Part shown: positions 222 to 14,462 of the stretch, in pieces
Layout of the letters: every line of letters begins with the position of its first letter
Position numbering within the stretch: the stretch's first letter is position 1
NCBI GenBank assembly: GCA_001657325.1
Contig: LWRO01000019.1
Coordinates: forward strand, 1-64,000
Origin: Geitlerinema sp. BBD 1991-9
Lineage (GTDB): Bacteria; Cyanobacteriota; Cyanobacteriia; Cyanobacteriales; Geitlerinemataceae
DNA length: 64,000 nucleotides
Direction: 5' to 3'
Program-made: the position numbers and the translations under genes
The notes under the pieces: generated by a model
What the model saw: the letters and a program-made list of their open reading frames with translations, nothing else
The model's database searches: none
Told to the model about the DNA's origin: nothing

Positions 222-1298
222 CTACCGACGATGTCGCTGGAGAATTGCGTGCGTCACGACCGGCGTTCCGAGCATCGCTGTTACTGCGTTCAAAGGCAAC
301 ACCGTTTGAGTTCCCGGAACTTGCGCCACCCAATCGGACAACACCGCCAGGGTCGCACCCAACAGCGTCACCGCTGGAAGTAAGTGGCGCGTATCCGAAG
401 TCTTCAGTAACGCGCGACTCAAATGCGGCACGGCTACCCCCAAAAAGGCAATCGGCCCGCAAAATGCCGTCACTGCACCCGCCAATACTGCTGCACTCGC
501 AATCGTCCAAAATTGCAACTCGCGCACCCGCAACCCTAAGCTTCGCGCCGAGGCTTCTCCCAAGAGCAGTAAATTGAGAGGTTTCGCCAGTAAGTACGCC
601 ACCCCCAACCCTGAGAACACCGTTACCCCAAAAACGCTCATGCGTTCCCACGTCACGCCGCCGAAACTGCCAAACGTCCAGGTGATATAGGATTGAATGC
701 GTTCGGAGGAACTGAAGTGCAGCAAAATCGTCACGAGAGCGTTGGCGGCATATCCGAACATCAGCCCCAGGAGCAAGAGGGTTTCACGGTTGCGAATCTG
801 TTGCGCGACGATGACGATGAGTCCCAACACCACCGCCGCACCGCTACTCGCCGATAACACTCGTCCCCAATTGCCCGCACTTCCGACTAATACAGCGATG
901 GCCACGCCTAAACTGGCCCCCGAACTAATTCCTAAAACAAACGGTCCAGCTAGGGGATTGCCGAATAGGGTTTGCATCTGTAAGCCAGCCACGGATAAGG
1001 CGGTTCCAGCGACGATGGCAGTGAGGAGTTTGGGAAGGCGAAAAGTGAGAACGATCGTTTTCCATGTGGCGGTTTCGGGTTCGCCGCCGAGTACGATTTT
1101 GAGGATTTCGTCGAGTGGAATCGGAACGGAACCGATCGATAAATTCAAGCCACACGCCACGACGAACAGTCCGACGAACAGCCACCAAATGGAAAAGCGG
1201 CGAAAGCGTTGGGGTCGATTTAACACGGTTCGATCGAATGGGGAGGAATTCGGATCACTTGACTGTGGTGGGTGCCGTCTGGGTTCAGTTCGAGCCAT
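222..1298 (-). CDS. btuC: BtuC-like cobalamin ABC transporter permease
   Basis: FecCD/BtuC-family inner-membrane permease (358 aa from this ATG; the family is usually about 330), which forms the B12 channel with the BtuD ATPase. It shows about ten hydrophobic segments, the family motif NPLAGPFVLGISSGAS (about residues 114-129) and the cytoplasmic-loop motif VAVPHLSRALL near the C-terminus. The start is uncertain. The ATG at 1298 overlaps the upstream metallophosphoesterase by 79 nt, whereas a GTG at 1226-1224 overlaps its TAA stop in GTGTTAA and gives 334 aa, closer to family length. Neither has a clear Shine-Dalgarno sequence. Last gene of the riboswitch-headed operon; the B12 substrate is inferred from that context, as iron-siderophore permeases look alike. 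Confidence 0.85.
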   Translation of the reverse strand: MARTEPRRHPPQSSDPNSSPFDRTVLNRPQRFRRFSIWWLFVGLFVVACGLNLSIGSVPIPLDEILKIVLGGEPETATWKTIVLTFRLPKLLTAIVAGTALSVAGLQMQTLFGNPLAGPFVLGISSGASLGVAIAVLVGSAGNWGRVLSASSGAAVVLGLIVIVAQQIRNRETLLLLGLMFGYAANALVTILLHFSSSERIQSYITWTFGSFGGVTWERMSVFGVTVFSGLGVAYLLAKPLNLLLLGEASARSLGLRVRELQFWTIASAAVLAGAVTAFCGPIAFLGVAVPHLSRALLKTSDTRHLLPAVTLLGATLAVLSDWVAQVPGTQTVLPLNAVTAMLGTPVVTHAILQRHRR

Positions 1299-1981
1299 CG
1301 AAAGCCAGGATATCGATCTCGTTCGATGGCGTTTTCGGGTAATACCTGGGTACAGGTTGAAGGCGTTCCGTAAAATTGAATCCCGTTGTAGGTTCGCTCG
1401 ACTTCTAGGTGAACGTGACCGAATAAAACCAGCTTGACACGATCGAATCGCTCGAGAATTGTTAAAAAGTCTGTGGCGTTGACGAGATCGATGGTATCGA
1501 GCCAATCAATGCCGGTCACAATGGGGTGGTGGTGTAGTGCAATGGCAACGGGATGATGGGATGCGTTTAAAGTTTTCTCTAAGTTCGCTAATGTTTGTTC
1601 GGAAAAGTAGCCTTCGCCGAATTTTGGATTATCGATCGTCGAGTCGAGTAAAATAAACGACCAATCTCCGAGGGTAAAATTTTGACGTGCGACGAACGGC
1701 CATTGATGTAAACGCTCGTTCATCGTCTCGAGACGATCGTGATTGCCCGGAATCCAGTAGGTTGGAATTTGGAGCGGTTCGATTAATTCAAACAGTCGAT
1801 CGTAAGCTTGAGGTTGGCCCTCGTCTGCCAAGTCTCCTGTCAGGAGTAACAGATCGGGATTTTTCAGTTTGACGCGACCTAAAATTGCTTTGAGCGAGTG
1901 CCAAGTTGCGACTCCTCTCATGGCAGTATTGGGATTTGAAAGAAGATGTGTATCGGTAATTTGAGCGATTTTTATTATCAT
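1220..1981 (-). CDS. CpdA-like calcineurin-type metallophosphoesterase
   Basis: A 253-residue cytoplasmic metallophosphoesterase of the class III cyclic-nucleotide phosphodiesterase (CpdA/Icc) type. The binuclear metal site is complete: D10-x-H12, GD at 49-50, GNHD at 79-82, HHHP at 150-153 and GHVH at 188-191. It starts 15 nt after the btuF stop and its own stop overlaps a possible GTG start of btuC, so it is embedded in the B12-uptake operon and probably translationally coupled. The family hydrolyses cAMP or other phosphodiesters and monoesters; the substrate here cannot be read from sequence. Its position suggests a role in nucleotide-loop processing of corrinoids or in signalling, but that is inference. 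Confidence 0.85.
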   Translation of the reverse strand: MIIKIAQITDTHLLSNPNTAMRGVATWHSLKAILGRVKLKNPDLLLLTGDLADEGQPQAYDRLFELIEPLQIPTYWIPGNHDRLETMNERLHQWPFVARQNFTLGDWSFILLDSTIDNPKFGEGYFSEQTLANLEKTLNASHHPVAIALHHHPIVTGIDWLDTIDLVNATDFLTILERFDRVKLVLFGHVHLEVERTYNGIQFYGTPSTCTQVLPENAIERDRYPGFRWLELNPDGTHHSQVIRIPPHSIEPC

Positions 1982-1996
1982 ATTTTTGTTGCGACG

Positions 1997-3214
1997 TCAA
2001 TCGAGCTTTTGATAATAAATCATTTCGGACTCTGGCATGAGTTCGGGATGGAAAATTTTGACTAAGTCAGTGAGAACGAGGTGTGGGTTGACTATGCCAC
2101 TTTCCCAATAGTCGTTACCGCCGTATTGATTGACTCGTGCGGTATTGTTATACATTCGATCGAGCTGCCACGCACTAAAACTTCCATATCTCGGATCGTC
2201 TTCGATCGCGTTAGCTTTGGTTTGCCAGCTTTGACTGAAATTCAACCAAAACTCAGCCTCAGAAGCCTTGTCATAGACCACTTCAAAATCGAGAGGAATA
2301 CTTCCAGTCGATGGATTTTCTTGCCAAAGGTAACTCGCTCCAGCATCAGTTAAAAAACGAGCGACATAACTCTTTCCTCCTGGAACGTACCATGTGCCAT
2401 CGTAGCTAAATCCCGTGAAGACTGTCGGACGATTTTTGACATTGCGAACTAATTCGACAATCCGATTGTATTCCTTCTCAATTTCTGTAAAAATTGCCTC
2501 TGCTTCTGCGTCTCGATTGAAAAATACGGCTGTGAATTTCAGCCATTCAGCTCTTCCTAATGGAGAATTTTCGAGGTATTCAGCATTCAAGGCGACGTTT
2601 AAACCGGCTTCTCGTAATTTAGGATGGCTGTCGTGATTTGAACGACCTGTTCCAAAAGTCATCACGATATCGGGGTTTAGATTGAGAATTGTTTCGATAT
2701 CGATCGTGCGATCTCGTCCGACTTCTGCAATCTGCTTCGCTTCAATTTTTTCGATAACACTTTGCGTATTAATTTGCTTAAAATCCCGCACGCCAGCGAT
2801 TCGATCGACTAAATTCAATTTATCGAGATGTGGTAAATAAGTGGTCGAGAGCGCTACGACAGAACGAACTGGAACTTCGATAATTTGAGATCGGTCGAAT
2901 CTTTTTGGAATAGGAGTTCCACACTGAACGAGTACATATTGAAAAGTTATTTCTGCGTCTTTCCAAGGATTGAGAACGGTAACGATCTTGTAGTTGTTTT
3001 TATATTCAATACTGAATCCTTCCGCTCGATCGATACTGACTTTGTTGGGGAAATAGTCAGTTTTCGGATCGTAGTTTGAAACGCAGCCTTGACGATCCTC
3101 GATCGAAGATCGATCGAGGGTTTGAAGATTGCGATCTGAATGGGTAAGGCAACCCGTTAAAAGAAACGAAGTAATACAGCAGAAAAATATTTGTTTTGCA
3201 AAAAATTTAGTCAT
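1997..3214 (-). CDS. btuF: BtuF-like cobalamin-binding lipoprotein
   Basis: Substrate-binding component of the B12 ABC importer (405 aa), a class III periplasmic binding protein of the TroA/BtuF fold. The N-terminus is a lipoprotein signal with lipobox LLTGC (Cys22), so it is anchored to the periplasmic face of the inner membrane. The family feature VVALSTTYLPHLDKLNLVDR and the segment EVGRDRTIDIETILNLNPD (first-lobe helix and hinge) are present. It follows the [2Fe-2S] protein by 178 nt, a gap containing a hairpin, and is followed closely by the metallophosphoesterase. The B12 assignment comes from the riboswitch and btuB; iron-complex binding proteins of the same fold are the alternative. 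Confidence 0.85.
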   Translation of the reverse strand: MTKFFAKQIFFCCITSFLLTGCLTHSDRNLQTLDRSSIEDRQGCVSNYDPKTDYFPNKVSIDRAEGFSIEYKNNYKIVTVLNPWKDAEITFQYVLVQCGTPIPKRFDRSQIIEVPVRSVVALSTTYLPHLDKLNLVDRIAGVRDFKQINTQSVIEKIEAKQIAEVGRDRTIDIETILNLNPDIVMTFGTGRSNHDSHPKLREAGLNVALNAEYLENSPLGRAEWLKFTAVFFNRDAEAEAIFTEIEKEYNRIVELVRNVKNRPTVFTGFSYDGTWYVPGGKSYVARFLTDAGASYLWQENPSTGSIPLDFEVVYDKASEAEFWLNFSQSWQTKANAIEDDPRYGSFSAWQLDRMYNNTARVNQYGGNDYWESGIVNPHLVLTDLVKIFHPELMPESEMIYYQKLD

Positions 3215-3338
3215 CGGTAGAGATCGCTCAAAAGGGTGAAACTTACGAAGTCATGGGATAGTTTTTAGTGAATTATTGAATCAAAACTCGAAGATTGTTT
3301 AGTAGTTTTATTTAAGATCGATTGGAGATTAAAGAAGC

Positions 3339-3364
3339 ATACCGGTTTCTAAAAAAGCCGGTAT
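3339..3364 (-). other. Intercistronic hairpin between the [2Fe-2S] gene and btuF
   Basis: Perfect 7-bp stem ATACCGG/CCGGTAT with a 12-nt loop in the 178-nt gap between two genes of the operon. No U-run follows on the minus strand, so it looks more like an RNA processing or stability element, or a partial attenuator, than a strong terminator. Confidence 0.45.
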
Positions 3365-3391
3365 ACTCTCTTTATCGGACGGGTAACGGTC

Positions 3392-4273
3392 TCAAGCTCG
3401 ATCGATTGCTGCTGGATATAAATGCTCGTCTAGTTTTTTTCCATTGACCAAATGTTCGTCAACAATCCTTTTGGCGACTTCGGGTTTAACGCGAGTGTAC
3501 CAAGTTCGATCGCCAGAATAAAAAACAACTGGCCCCAACTGACACACTTCCAAACATCCCGAAGTCATCACAGTCACGTCCAATCCCGCTTTTTCAACCG
3601 CTGTTTTCAATGCTTCAAATACAGGTTGCCACTTACGAGACGGATTGCACCGACTCGATCGACAAACTGATAGATAAGGACGTTTTAGCGGATTGGCTTC
3701 GAACGGAATCGGACGTTCTCCCAAAACGTAGATCGATCGAAGTTCTTCATAAAGTCCCAGCTTTTCTAACTTCGGCTTTCCTTCCGGCAATAAATCCTCA
3801 TCTTCTCCCAAGAACGGATTGGGTAAAAACAAATTCATCATCCGTTCTCCAGCACCGTTCCAGAATTGAATTCCCCAGCTTTTCGCCTGTCCGTCTGCAT
3901 TAAACCGACGGTACAAAGCGGCACGAGAGACGAGGCGTTGTTGGCGAAGTTCTGGTGGCGTTTTACAATGAGGCCCGCCTAAATGTTCTTCCAAGCATAA
4001 GTGCATATGCCATCCCTGCGTCACGACTGTTAAATAGCCATCATAAAGAATGCACAGTTTAGGCGGTTCTGTGAATTCTAATTCTAAAACACTTCCTTCA
4101 ACAACATGACCGAGTTGTACTTCCTGCCAACGATCTTGAAACAAAGCGTACAACATCGGTCCGGTTATGTCGATCGCCGATGGAAAATCCTCGTATTCGA
4201 TCGTTCCACCTTGGTAAGTGGGTTCGATCTCACGACGGTTTAGCGGTGTTACCCAACAGTTGAAATCGCTCAT
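3392..4273 (-). CDS. Two-part protein with C-terminal thioredoxin-like [2Fe-2S] ferredoxin domain
   Basis: 293 aa from the ATG at 4273 (an in-frame TTG at 4312, directly after the btuB stop, is an alternative start). Residues 198-280 form a thioredoxin-fold [2Fe-2S] domain with four cysteines, VCRSSRC (C204, C209) and CLEVC (C240, C244), followed by the typical TWYTRVKPEVAKRIVDEHL tail. Residues 1-190 are a separate domain that I cannot name; it is rich in Trp, His and Cys in the stretch WHMHLCLEEHLGGPHC (88-103), which could bind a metal or a corrinoid. The gene lies 42 nt downstream of btuB under the cobalamin riboswitch. A reductive step in B12 handling, for example reduction of the cobalt or removal of an upper ligand, is a reasonable hypothesis but unproven. 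Confidence 0.8.
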   Translation of the reverse strand: MSDFNCWVTPLNRREIEPTYQGGTIEYEDFPSAIDITGPMLYALFQDRWQEVQLGHVVEGSVLELEFTEPPKLCILYDGYLTVVTQGWHMHLCLEEHLGGPHCKTPPELRQQRLVSRAALYRRFNADGQAKSWGIQFWNGAGERMMNLFLPNPFLGEDEDLLPEGKPKLEKLGLYEELRSIYVLGERPIPFEANPLKRPYLSVCRSSRCNPSRKWQPVFEALKTAVEKAGLDVTVMTSGCLEVCQLGPVVFYSGDRTWYTRVKPEVAKRIVDEHLVNGKKLDEHLYPAAIDRA

Positions 4274-4315
4274 GGCTACGGAGACATTGTCATTTTTATC
4301 GTTGTACCACAATTT

Positions 4316-6610
4316 TTAGAAAGTCCAACGCACTCCAGCTTGGAAGTTTCGACTCAATCCTGGAAAACCTGGATAAACTTCATACTGCTCGTCAAAGAGA
4401 TTGTTCAAACTAGCATTTAGCCTGAAGTTTTCACCGAACGGAATTTGCACCTTCAAGTCAACAGTTGTATATCCTCCCAAAGTTTCCGTGTTGGCGTTGT
4501 CTACAAAAAATTCGCTGATGTGGTGAAGGAGAACCCCTGCATAAAATCCATTTGGACGAGCGTAAGCAACTCCGAGGTTAAAGCTATCCGCATCGCGAAA
4601 ACTCAAGTCATTGCCTTCGATACCTTCATTTCGATCCTCTAAGATACGAGTATCGTTCAGCGTCAAGTTCGCAAAGGCAAAAAAGTTTTTAGCAATTTCA
4701 AAATCCAACCCAGCCTCTAAACCGATCGTTTCAGTCTCCCCAATGTTCTTGTAGGTACTCGGCGAACCAAATTCAAAAACGATGAGTTCTGAAATGTGAT
4801 TGAGGAAAAAAGTGGCGCGAAACAGTCCAAAATCACCAATTTTTTGGTCGATGCCGATATCGAAGCTATTGCCTCGCTCGGGTCGCAGATCGGGATTTCC
4901 CTCAACGTTGAATGCGGCTAAACCTTCTAACTCTGAAACGAGTGGTGCGTTGAAACTTCTGGCATAGTTCGCGCGTAACGTCGTTGAGTTCGTAACGTTC
5001 CAAAGGAGTCCTGCACTTGGGGAGGTAAAAGAGCCATTTTCCAGGCTGTTAAATTCTTGGCGAACGCCGAGATTGACGCTGAAATCTGGCGTAACATCGA
5101 CTTCGTAGCGCGCAAAAATGGCCCCTTGGTCGATGTTGTCGTCGTAGTTTTCCGTACTCGTGTCAGTGAAGAAACTAAACGTTTTGTTTTCAGACGTAAT
5201 GGTGCGAAAATCGACGCCGTAAGCAAGATTGTGTGCGTTGGCAATTTGCCAGTTATGTTGAATTTGAAACCCGAATGCAGTTCGATCGACTTCGCTGCGA
5301 CTGCTACGGGGATCGCGGTAGGTATAGTCGAGAACATCGGTATAGACTCTAGCGGTGAGTAATGAATCTCGCTCGCGTCCGAGTTCAGATTCCCAAATGA
5401 GATCGAACAGCCAATCTTCTGTATATTGTCGAGCATCGGGAGTCAGGCTGTTAAATTGTCCGAGACTTCCTGGTTTTGTGGGAACGCCACCGGAAACACC
5501 AAAATCTCGCGAAAGGTACAATCCGCTAAACGTGAGATGATTTCGATCGCCGATATCAGCTGTCAGTTTGAGATTGACGTTGTTGTAGTTGACATCAGCA
5601 TTTTCTCGCGTTCCGTCAAAGTCAATCGTTTCGAGTTCAAAGGGAAAATCGTTTTCGGAATAAGTTCGGTTGTAACCGATAACCCAGCCGAAATCACCAA
5701 CGCTTCCTCGACTTTGGACGATTTGCTGGTTGTAGTCAAAACTTCCGAACCCGCCTCTCACTAAAAATTCGGGTTCTTCGGTTGGCGATTGGGTGACGAT
5801 GTTAATCGTACCGCCAACACCACTGGAACCGTAGAGCGCCGAACTTCCACCGGGAAAGACTTCTAAACGTTCGACTGAATCGGTTGTAAATTGTGCTAAA
5901 TCGAAACCACCAGAGAAACCCAAATCGTTAATCGGACGGCCGTTTAAGAGAATTAACGTTTGGGATGAATCGCCACCTCGGATAAATTGAGAGCTGAGCG
6001 ATCCCAATTGTCCACCAGCCGTTCCGTCGCTGAGAACTCCTGGGACGAATTGTAATGCCTCTTGAACGGTAATGGCATTTTGAACTTCGATTTGCTCTCG
6101 GGGAACGACGTAAACCGGACGAGACGATTCGCGCAACGGCCGGTCTTGTCGAAAAGGAGCAAATATGGGTTGGTTGAGAATTCTCTCGATAAAAATTTCA
6201 ACTTCTGGAACTTCTTCTGGAGTTTCGGATTCGTTCTCGGTCTCCTCTACTTCGGTTCCTGTTTCTATTTCAGATTCAGATTCAGATTCAGGATTTTGAA
6301 CGAGGTGTAAAGTTGAGTTTGAAACGTTGCGGTCTAAATCGATATTTTCCGAGTGTTTCTTGGGTAAAACAGACGATCGAACGTTCGATCGACGGATTGA
6401 CTGTAGCTCCATTTCCGAGGCGCGATCGAGTTGTTTGAGCTGCTCGATCGAGTCCATTGACGGCTCTGAAGCTGTGGCAGGGAACTGTCCCAATATCAAA
6501 AGTGCTAATCCTGCGGTACTGAGCTTTACAAAATGAGGCAACACAGGCAAAGTCGAGCAGTTTACAAAATTTTGGATTTTAGTCATTTTTTTGTACAGAA
6601 AACACTTCAT
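4316..6610 (-). CDS. btuB: BtuB-like TonB-dependent outer-membrane cobalamin receptor
   Basis: TonB-dependent receptor of 764 aa that would carry B12 across the outer membrane using TonB energy. A signal peptide ends near ATAS (residue 48). Residues about 107-140 are a very acidic low-complexity linker (repeated Glu/Ser), unusual before the plug. The plug domain spans roughly 165-275 (QFIRGGDSSQTLILLNGRPI), followed by a 22-strand-type barrel ending in aromatic FQAGVRWTF, as expected for Bam-mediated insertion. The start is the ATG at 6610; a TTG one codon earlier and an ATG at 6586 are alternatives. It is the first gene after the cobalamin riboswitch, which fixes the likely substrate. Confidence 0.92.
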   Translation of the reverse strand: MKCFLYKKMTKIQNFVNCSTLPVLPHFVKLSTAGLALLILGQFPATASEPSMDSIEQLKQLDRASEMELQSIRRSNVRSSVLPKKHSENIDLDRNVSNSTLHLVQNPESESESEIETGTEVEETENESETPEEVPEVEIFIERILNQPIFAPFRQDRPLRESSRPVYVVPREQIEVQNAITVQEALQFVPGVLSDGTAGGQLGSLSSQFIRGGDSSQTLILLNGRPINDLGFSGGFDLAQFTTDSVERLEVFPGGSSALYGSSGVGGTINIVTQSPTEEPEFLVRGGFGSFDYNQQIVQSRGSVGDFGWVIGYNRTYSENDFPFELETIDFDGTRENADVNYNNVNLKLTADIGDRNHLTFSGLYLSRDFGVSGGVPTKPGSLGQFNSLTPDARQYTEDWLFDLIWESELGRERDSLLTARVYTDVLDYTYRDPRSSRSEVDRTAFGFQIQHNWQIANAHNLAYGVDFRTITSENKTFSFFTDTSTENYDDNIDQGAIFARYEVDVTPDFSVNLGVRQEFNSLENGSFTSPSAGLLWNVTNSTTLRANYARSFNAPLVSELEGLAAFNVEGNPDLRPERGNSFDIGIDQKIGDFGLFRATFFLNHISELIVFEFGSPSTYKNIGETETIGLEAGLDFEIAKNFFAFANLTLNDTRILEDRNEGIEGNDLSFRDADSFNLGVAYARPNGFYAGVLLHHISEFFVDNANTETLGGYTTVDLKVQIPFGENFRLNASLNNLFDEQYEVYPGFPGLSRNFQAGVRWTF

Positions 6611-6650
6611 CAATTCGCCATGTTACGGTTGGCATTGATGTTCAGACTTG

Positions 6651-6682
6651 AAAAGGAGACTGTCCGCTAAAATACGACAGTC
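6651..6682 (-). terminator. Hairpin with short U-run in the btuB leader
   Basis: On the minus strand GACTGTC (6682-6676), an 11-nt loop, GACAGTC (6664-6658), then TCCTTTT. It sits about 270 nt downstream of the riboswitch aptamer and 40 nt upstream of the btuB start, so it could be a transcription-termination expression platform. The U-run is short, and no competing antiterminator was identified. Confidence 0.4.
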
Positions 6683-6952
6683 ATCGGTTCAATCGTTTGA
6701 GAGTTTGAGTCAAATTGCAGTCGAGCAAGCCAGTTCGATCTCTTTTCGCGAAAACGTCAACATGAGATCGATGGAAAAGCTTTTACCCGTGAAATACTTC
6801 AATTCTTCTAAGGTCAAGCAATTCCAGAAAATTTCGATGGTCTTTGAAACGAAGCAACCCTCGAAAATTCAATTGCAAAGCGCTAAAATTTCGATCGTTC
6901 AAACAAACTTTCATCTGTACCTCGCAGACGCATTTCAAAGTTAACACTTCAT

Positions 6953-7070
6953 CGGCGGGCATCCTGACTCAGAGGCTCACGACTCATAACAGTTGCGGGA
7001 CAGCGTCGGATTTTCACCGAACTTTCCCCGTTACCTTTGGTGGCTGACCCCCACCAAAACCGACTCGCCG
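6953..7070 (-). promoter_or_regulatory. Cobalamin riboswitch upstream of btuB
   Basis: The minus strand shows the conserved cobalamin aptamer core in order: GGGGAAAG, CGGTGAAAATCCG, GCTGTCCCGCAACTGT (B12 box), then a GTGAGCC/GAGTCAGGA segment. The ends CGGCG (7070-7066) and CGCCG (6957-6953) pair as the closing P1 stem. It lies in the long leader of the btuB operon and should repress it when cobalamin is abundant. The outer limits of the aptamer are set from the pairing only. It does not control btuD, which is read from the other strand. Confidence 0.93.
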
Positions 7071-7278: not shown

Positions 7279-8064
7279 ATGTCAATTGTTACCCAACAGC
7301 TTACTGGAGGTTACTCAAACCATCCAGTTATCCGAAATGTCTCGTTGAATGTCAAATCGGGAGAGTGGTTAACGATCCTAGGTGCAAATGGTTCGGGTAA
7401 ATCGACGCTTTTACGGCTTTTATGTCGCCTGCTTCAGCCAAAACAGGGCGTTGTTTTGCTGGACGATACCTCGATCGAGATATTTTCCTCTCGTCAGATC
7501 GCTCGTAAAATTGCATTTTTATCACAGCAACAAGCTAACGTTCCCGAGGAAATGACTGTCCGAGAATTAGTGAGTTTAGGACGATCGCCTTATCAACCTT
7601 GGTGGAAATGGGAATTAAGCGCAGACGATCGAGATTGGGTTGAGATCTCCTTGCAGCGAACGAATCTCGAGGATTTCGCCAATCGTCCAATTTCTCAGCT
7701 GTCTGGTGGCGAACGACAACGCGCGTTTTTAGCTTTGGCATTGGCGCAGAACCCCACAGTTTTGTTGCTAGACGAACCAACTACATTTCTCGATATTTGC
7801 TATCAATTGGAATTACTGGATTTACTCGACTCTCTCAATCGAACTCGAAAGCTATCGATCGTAACGGTCTTGCACGATATAAACTTAGCTGCGCGGTACA
7901 GCCATCGTATCGCACTTGTGAAATCAGGTCAGATTGTCGAGGTGGGTACTCCAGTTGAGGTACTCACTCCTGAAAATATTCTTTGTGTTTTTGGAGTCGA
8001 AGCAATTATCATTTCCACGCCAGTCGGATTACAAGTTTGTCCCTTACGATTTGCTTCAAAATAA
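7279..8064 (+). CDS. btuD: BtuD-like ABC transporter ATPase
   Basis: ATP-binding subunit (261 aa) of the FecE/BtuD type that energises the BtuC permease. Walker A GANGSGKST (35-43), signature LSGGE (141-145), Walker B VLLLDEPT (161-168) and the switch histidine in VLHDINLA are all intact. The start chosen is the ATG opening MSIVTQQLTGGY, which places the usual short strand before Walker A; an upstream in-frame start would add 28 residues of no family likeness. It is divergent from the btuB operon, so the importer is split over two transcripts, and only the minus-strand one has the riboswitch. Pairing with btuC/btuF is inferred from proximity. Confidence 0.88.
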   Translation: MSIVTQQLTGGYSNHPVIRNVSLNVKSGEWLTILGANGSGKSTLLRLLCRLLQPKQGVVLLDDTSIEIFSSRQIARKIAFLSQQQANVPEEMTVRELVSLGRSPYQPWWKWELSADDRDWVEISLQRTNLEDFANRPISQLSGGERQRAFLALALAQNPTVLLLDEPTTFLDICYQLELLDLLDSLNRTRKLSIVTVLHDINLAARYSHRIALVKSGQIVEVGTPVEVLTPENILCVFGVEAIIISTPVGLQVCPLRFASK

Positions 8065-13629: not shown

Positions 13630-13760
13630 AACGAAGCGTTGACGCGATGAGAAGATAGGCAGATCGTAAGACTTCTCTTGACTTTTAACCGATTTCCTCT
13701 ATTGTTTTACTATTCTTTACACTTTTTCGATCGTCGTCTCGAATTTGCCTATCGCGCACA

Positions 13761-14462
13761 ATGAAACTATCTGTCGTCATCCCTTGCTATAACGAAATCG
13801 GTACGATCGGCAACGTGGTCGAAGCCGTCAAAGCGTCTCCCGTGAAGAACACGGAAATTATTATTGTCGATGATGGTTCAACAGACGGGACACGAGAGCT
13901 ACTTCAATCGAAAATCGAATCTCAAGTCGAACAGGTAGTGTACCATCCTAAAAATATGGGGAAAGGTGCAGCGCTTCGCACGGGATTTACCAGCGCGACG
14001 GGCGATATTGTCATCGTTCAAGATGCGGATTTGGAATACGATCCTCAAGAATATCCGATCCTGATCGAACCGATCCTTAAAGGGAAAGCAGATGTCGTGT
14101 TTGGATCTCGGTTTGTGGGGAGTCAACCGCACCGTGTCGTTTACTATTGGCACATGGTGGGAAACCAATTTCTCACAACGTTGTCGAATATGTTTACGAA
14201 TATCAACCTCACGGATATGGAAACCTGTTATAAGGCATTTCGCCGCGAGGTTATTCAAGCGGTAAAAGTTGAAGAGCGTCGCTTTGGATTTGAGCCAGAA
14301 ATTACCGCGAAAGTCTCGCAAATGGGTTGTCGAATTTACGAAGTCGGAATTTCCTACTACGGTCGAACGTATAAAGAAGGAAAGAAGATCGGCTGGAAAG
14401 ATGGCTTTCAGGCAATTTGGTGTATTTTAAAATATAATCTTTTCAAAAAAACACCGTATTGA
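13761..14462 (+). CDS. Family 2 glycosyltransferase, polyprenyl-phosphate hexose synthase-like
   Basis: 233-residue soluble GT-A enzyme of the dolichol-phosphate mannose synthase (DPM1) type, which moves a hexose from a nucleotide sugar to a polyprenyl phosphate at the inner membrane surface. Nucleotide-binding DDGSTDGT (37-44), the metal motif QDADLEYDP (87-95), and the FGSRFVG and [15 protein letters not shown] segments of the family are present; there are no C-terminal membrane helices. It is 115 nt upstream of a GT-C-like membrane protein that could use the lipid-linked sugar. The exact sugar is unknown. Confidence 0.88.

Follow-up and report, generated by a model that had tools for sequence, protein, structure and literature searches.

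A predicted riboswitch-headed cobalamin uptake operon of Geitlerinema carries conserved genes for a DUF7676-[2Fe-2S] protein and a CpdA-like phosphodiesterase

We analyzed a 64,000-nt stretch of contig LWRO01000019.1 of Geitlerinema sp. BBD 1991-9 (hereafter the window; coordinates follow its forward strand) and describe a predicted cobalamin (B12) uptake operon in which the import genes are accompanied by two others, one encoding a [2Fe-2S] protein and one a CpdA-like phosphodiesterase (PDE). The locus comprises the following features:

7079-6937, minus strand: cobalamin riboswitch aptamer RF00174 (59.6 bits, full model 1-189)
6613-4316, likely ATG at 6586, minus strand: btuB, TonB-dependent cobalamin receptor (Plug and TonB beta-barrel)
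4312-3392, likely ATG at 4273, minus strand: DUF7676 and thioredoxin-like [2Fe-2S] protein (PF24724, 223.7 bits)
3339-3364, no strand assigned: strong hairpin in the gap between the [2Fe-2S] gene and btuF (10-pair stem flagged on the plus strand; minus strand z -3.55)
3214-1997, minus strand: btuF, periplasmic cobalamin-binding lipoprotein (Peripla_BP_2, 96.4 bits)
1981-1220, minus strand: CpdA-like calcineurin-type PDE of a btu-linked clade (Metallophos, 81.5 bits)
1226-222, minus strand: btuC, permease with a GTG start (FecCD, 244.5 bits)
7279-8064, plus strand: btuD-like ATP-binding protein, divergent from the operon (ABC_tran, FecE/BtuD type)

The aptamer scores far above its gathering threshold of 31.5 bits (E 3e-12), and on the minus strand it is followed by btuB, the [2Fe-2S] gene, btuF, the PDE gene and btuC. 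The RF00174 match and the gene models thus confirm the riboswitch-headed, single-strand series of btu genes described in an earlier note on this DNA, and the model matches agree with all five of its gene identities. Its range, 1220-7070, ends before btuC and misses the divergent btuD-type gene, which has no riboswitch on the plus strand. The best NCBIfam models for btuB (TIGR01779, 184 bits) and btuC (BtuC PRK03784, 188.5 bits) both score under their cut-offs. Intergenic spacing is short throughout, and the PDE stop codon and the btuC GTG start overlap by 7 nt; the exception is a gap of 177 nt that separates the [2Fe-2S] gene from btuF. The hairpin in this gap is possibly an attenuator or processing site, and may split the predicted operon or stabilize the upstream message. 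No expression platform was recognized for the riboswitch, the 361-nt leader folding no better than shuffled sequences (z -0.83).

The [2Fe-2S] gene is closely tied to B12 import in other genomes. Scanning GTDB genomes with its product yielded 69 relatives, all on cyanobacterial records except one metagenome-assembled genome labelled Gracilibacteria. Where the flanks are long enough, most loci have the gene directly 3' of btuB, and in many of these btuF and btuC come next. We then drew an even sample of the phylum (244 genomes), in which DUF7676 was found in 18 genomes and a BtuF of the window's type in 20. Both occurred together in 15 (Fisher P 4e-17, only a guide as the genomes are related), and the two genes adjoin in all 15. 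A cobalamin riboswitch precedes the [2Fe-2S] gene in 15 of the 18 sampled carriers, and of 46 named genomes checked, 34 have one on the same strand, about 2-4 kb upstream (a riboswitch assigned to locus L062 by coordinates was spurious and is left out of this count). Two loci carry tandem cobalamin riboswitches (L043:7265-7407 and 7746-7888; L038:13480-13666 and 13670-13814). The record titled Candidatus Gracilibacteria (L022) encodes a close relative of the cyanobacterial [2Fe-2S] protein and is probably mislabelled or mixed.

The three sampled DUF7676 carriers that lack BtuF have a membrane protein of about 200 residues encoded directly 3' of the [2Fe-2S] gene, and a profile of this protein matched 6 of the 244 genomes, including exactly these three. 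In L021 and L022 its gene lies directly 5' of the [2Fe-2S] gene instead, and it adjoins btuB or the [2Fe-2S] gene where btuFC are missing in L021, L022, L088, L092, L096 and others. The window's genome also has a copy, under another riboswitch. The protein matches no Pfam family. In fold comparisons of its predicted model (pLDDT 89), S-components of energy-coupling factor (ECF) transporters fill the top eleven rows (Z 9 to 11.6), and Z falls to about 7 for unrelated proteins, except for one MreD at 9.0. Foldseek alone found no significant match, and we therefore consider the S-component fold suggestive. A known protein of this kind is BtuM, a solitary B12 transporter of similar size that resembles S-components and has an essential Cys. 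The cyanobacterial protein has a predicted S-component fold, a conserved YTC/YPH motif and, in many members, a conserved Cys; this residue is His in some members and Tyr in the Geitlerinema copy. Identity with the solved BtuM was rejected at the sequence level, where there was no match; BtuM is also not among the listed fold matches, which is uninformative either way. Judging from the model, the protein may possibly be a cyanobacterial counterpart of BtuM. A decayed copy with three internal stops follows a riboswitch at G123:C6:1666191-1666668. Since the [2Fe-2S] protein is found with either BtuF or this putative transporter, it appears to accompany B12 import as such, through two different routes, rather than one transporter.

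The [2Fe-2S] protein itself consists of an N-terminal Pfam DUF7676 domain and a C-terminal thioredoxin-like [2Fe-2S] domain, with no signal peptide visible by eye. Seven residues are invariant in 53 sequences: H102, H104 and C106, and the cluster cysteines C217, C222, C253 and C257, which have the Cx4C and Cx3C spacing of a ferredoxin. The C-terminal domain matches Aquifex ferredoxin (hmmsearch E 1.7e-10) and hydrogenase subunits in sequence, and Azotobacter FeSI (Z 14.2) and again Aquifex ferredoxin in fold; Pfam PF01257 scores 18.7 bits, under its cut-off of 24.8. Fold and cysteine pattern are thus shared with these ferredoxins, whereas here the ferredoxin fold is one domain of a larger protein. 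In the predicted model (pLDDT 89), the DUF7676 domain resembles ChuX (Foldseek E 2.3e-5, prob 1.00; VIA Z 10.7 over 132 residues) as well as HutX, HemS, ChuS and PhuS, all annotated as heme-binding or heme-degrading. The prediction therefore assigns the domain to the heme-chaperone fold of ChuX, HutX and HemS; the domain differs from those proteins in its fusion to a [2Fe-2S] domain, its link to B12 and its lack of any detectable sequence match to them. DUF7676 was not mentioned in the literature that we searched. A tetrapyrrole-chaperone-type domain joined to an electron carrier and encoded in a cobalamin import operon suggests a protein that accepts and reduces corrinoids in the cytosol, with a role like that of CblC, and we consider this function somewhat probable for the modelled protein. 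The earlier note had proposed that the redox protein reduces the cobalt or removes the upper ligand; the predicted fold of the N-terminal domain and its fusion to a ferredoxin strengthen that idea, the activity itself remaining conjectural.

By sequence, the PDE is a calcineurin-type metallophosphoesterase. It passes PF00149 (81.5 vs 21.5 bits), and the metal-binding motifs DxH, GD, GNHD, HH and GHxH are intact, with D10, H12, G49, D50, G79-D82, H150-H151, G188, H189 and H191 conserved. Homologues were found in 45 genomes, and the best eight are exactly the eight in which the gene lies beside btuF, in the btuF/btuC gap in five and in the btuB/btuF gap in three; the btuB-PDE-btuF order has a riboswitch in front. 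In a tree of 51 PDE sequences, 14 btu-linked sequences and one unlinked sequence (L145) form a clade with support 99/99, and no recognizable B12 genes surround L145, the sole member outside a btu locus. The sequence comparison thus groups the btu-linked PDEs in one supported clade, apart from the CpdA-like proteins otherwise present in cyanobacteria. The earlier note had tied its proposal to conservation of both extra genes elsewhere, and both are indeed kept beside btu genes and cobalamin riboswitches in other genomes.

From these observations we propose a mechanism. BtuB, BtuF and BtuC, with BtuD, would import the corrinoid, which the ChuX/HutX-like domain would accept in the cytosol. The [2Fe-2S] domain would then pass electrons to the cobalt, so that Co(II) or Co(I) forms and the upper ligand is lost, a role that may be likened to that of human CblC/MMACHC or of the heme acceptors HutX and ChuS. 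The reduced corrinoid would serve as cofactor for MetH and go to the adenosyltransferase. In some species, a nucleotide phosphodiester connected with corrinoid salvage would then be processed in the cytosol by the PDE; it may be the nucleotide loop, which CobU and CobS could rebuild with another lower ligand. The riboswitch, the transport genes and the conserved linkage of both extra genes are observed. To us the evidence is evenly balanced on whether they amount to an uptake operon, repressible by cobalamin, whose products also handle the imported corrinoid in the cytosol. The most specific version, a two-enzyme corrinoid processing kit of cyanobacteria under cobalamin riboswitches that combines a new heme-chaperone-fold/ferredoxin counterpart of CblC in bacteria with, in some species, a calcineurin-type cobamide phosphodiesterase initiating pseudocobalamin remodelling, is speculative and probably goes too far.

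Several points weigh against corrinoid handling by the two proteins. A common fold alone says nothing of the ligand. Pfam ChuX_HutX (PF06228) has no match in the [2Fe-2S] protein or the Geitlerinema genome, and hhalign against 19 cyanobacterial PF06228 proteins gave a probability of 1%, both profiles being shallow; what we claim for DUF7676 is therefore a fold, not family membership. As for the PDE, most [2Fe-2S]/btu loci lack it, so that import does not depend on it, and cAMP and other nucleotides are possible substrates of CpdA-like enzymes.

It is a serious possibility, though short of an even chance, that the PDE gene was recruited to the operon and encodes an ordinary phosphodiesterase, acting on cyclic nucleotides or nucleotides and not on corrinoids. 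Among named models the PDE comes closest to CpdA (191.8 bits) and SpdA (103.9 bits), and every metal-binding motif is typical of the class. Yet the protein scores below the CpdA equivalog cut-off of 225 bits (NF008359/PRK11148), the btu-linked sequences form a clade of their own with a few clade-specific positions, and the linkage to btu genes persists across two gene arrangements. Cleavage of the nucleotide loop of cobamides by the PDE is a tentative reading that we rate as rather unlikely. It has a precedent in CbiR, a phosphodiesterase of the AP endonuclease 2 superfamily that acts on the nucleotide loop and is encoded with cobamide genes; the likeness to the remodelling hydrolases CbiR and CbiZ lies in the proposed role only, the window's PDE being of the calcineurin type. 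CobS was found in 23 of 23 genomes searched and CobU in 19 of 19, and all sampled PDE carriers have both. CbiZ (PF01955) was found in none of the 23 genomes searched, and CbiR, whose Pfam family is too general, was not searched for. The presence of CobS and CobU and the absence of CbiZ are compatible with the requirements of a remodelling pathway that relies on a hydrolase of the nucleotide loop; CobS and CobU also occur in genomes without the PDE, and the pattern is therefore not discriminating. G050 lacks CbiC, and G052, G077 and G205 each have only one copy with a lower score, which is consistent with B12 auxotrophy of the kind seen in PCC 7002 without being proof.

The PDE might instead trim intermediates of the alpha-ribazole phosphate or GDP-cobinamide type, a form of salvage clean-up that leaves intact cobamides uncut. 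Metallophosphoesterases commonly act on such esters, and the presence of CobU and CobS in all sampled carriers means that these intermediates occur. We nevertheless judge this improbable, as the PDE gene is linked to import genes whereas cobU and cobS lie elsewhere in the genomes searched.

For the [2Fe-2S] protein, the alternative is that it handles heme or another tetrapyrrole, or senses iron or redox state, and sits in the btu operon through coordination of B12 and iron uptake. Its nearest folds are those of heme chaperones and heme-degrading proteins, and the btu cluster of Anabaena adjoins the iron/copper transporter gene iacT (PMC10878165). Against this, the gene tracks btuB and the cobalamin riboswitch across the sampled cyanobacteria, and its product accompanies either of two inner-membrane systems presumed to import B12; we give the heme or iron role little weight beside corrinoid reduction. 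That both extra genes are neutral passengers is very improbable: the PDE is patchy, the tree having 14 btu-linked sequences while many btu loci lack the gene, but conserved gene order, near-zero or overlapping spacing in several genera, linkage to the riboswitch and the single supported PDE clade led us to reject the idea.

Both genes, which the earlier note had thought unexpected among btu genes, have been reported in cyanobacterial btu operons, and in this respect the note was only partly right. In Anabaena sp. PCC 7120, the alr4027-btuD cluster, induced by cobalt starvation, comprises a cobalamin riboswitch, btuB2, the ferredoxin-like alr4030, btuF, btuC and btuD; alr4030 itself was not examined in that study and was left without a function (PMC10878165). 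This cluster begins with alr4027, has btuD in line and lacks a PDE, whereas Geitlerinema has the PDE and a divergent btuD. From gene order and close Nostoc loci such as L087, we infer that alr4030 and the window's [2Fe-2S] gene encode the same protein. In L087 (Nostoc parmelioides), the btu cluster starts with a DUF1636 protein (L087:7153-7563, plus strand), a small thioredoxin-like [2Fe-2S] candidate and the apparent counterpart of alr4027. For Synechococcus sp. PCC 7002, a riboswitch-regulated btuB-cpdA-btuC-btuF operon is attributed to Perez et al. 2016 in a review, whose mention of the operon gives cpdA no function (PMC8123684). As summarized there, it shares with our locus the riboswitch, btuB, a CpdA-like gene and ABC transporter genes, and the riboswitch-headed btuB-PDE-btuF order in our sample resembles it; in this order the PDE precedes btuF, and the three sampled genomes that have it lack a DUF7676-[2Fe-2S] gene. 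The gene set is therefore not new. Within the limits of our searches, novelty lies in the fold of DUF7676, in the second transporter setting and in the distinct clade of btu-linked PDEs.

Little is known about the stripping and reduction of imported B12 in the bacterial cytosol, and to our knowledge few bacterial CblC-type proteins have been described. The [2Fe-2S] protein, which combines a predicted fold of tetrapyrrole chaperones with a built-in electron donor and is linked to B12 import through two different inner-membrane systems, offers a concrete candidate, and the PDE makes the conversion of foreign cobalamin to the preferred pseudocobalamin in cyanobacteria a directly testable question.

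The rest of the Geitlerinema genome holds three further RF00174 matches. One is at a contig end, another heads a corrin biosynthesis cluster led by CbiX, and the third (L105:5905-6696, minus strand; G000:C112) heads the S-component-like membrane protein of about 200 residues, followed by metE. The CbiC, CobS and CobU families are all present, and the organism therefore probably makes cobamides as well as importing them. The metE-linked membrane protein is a candidate second B12 transporter of this strain.

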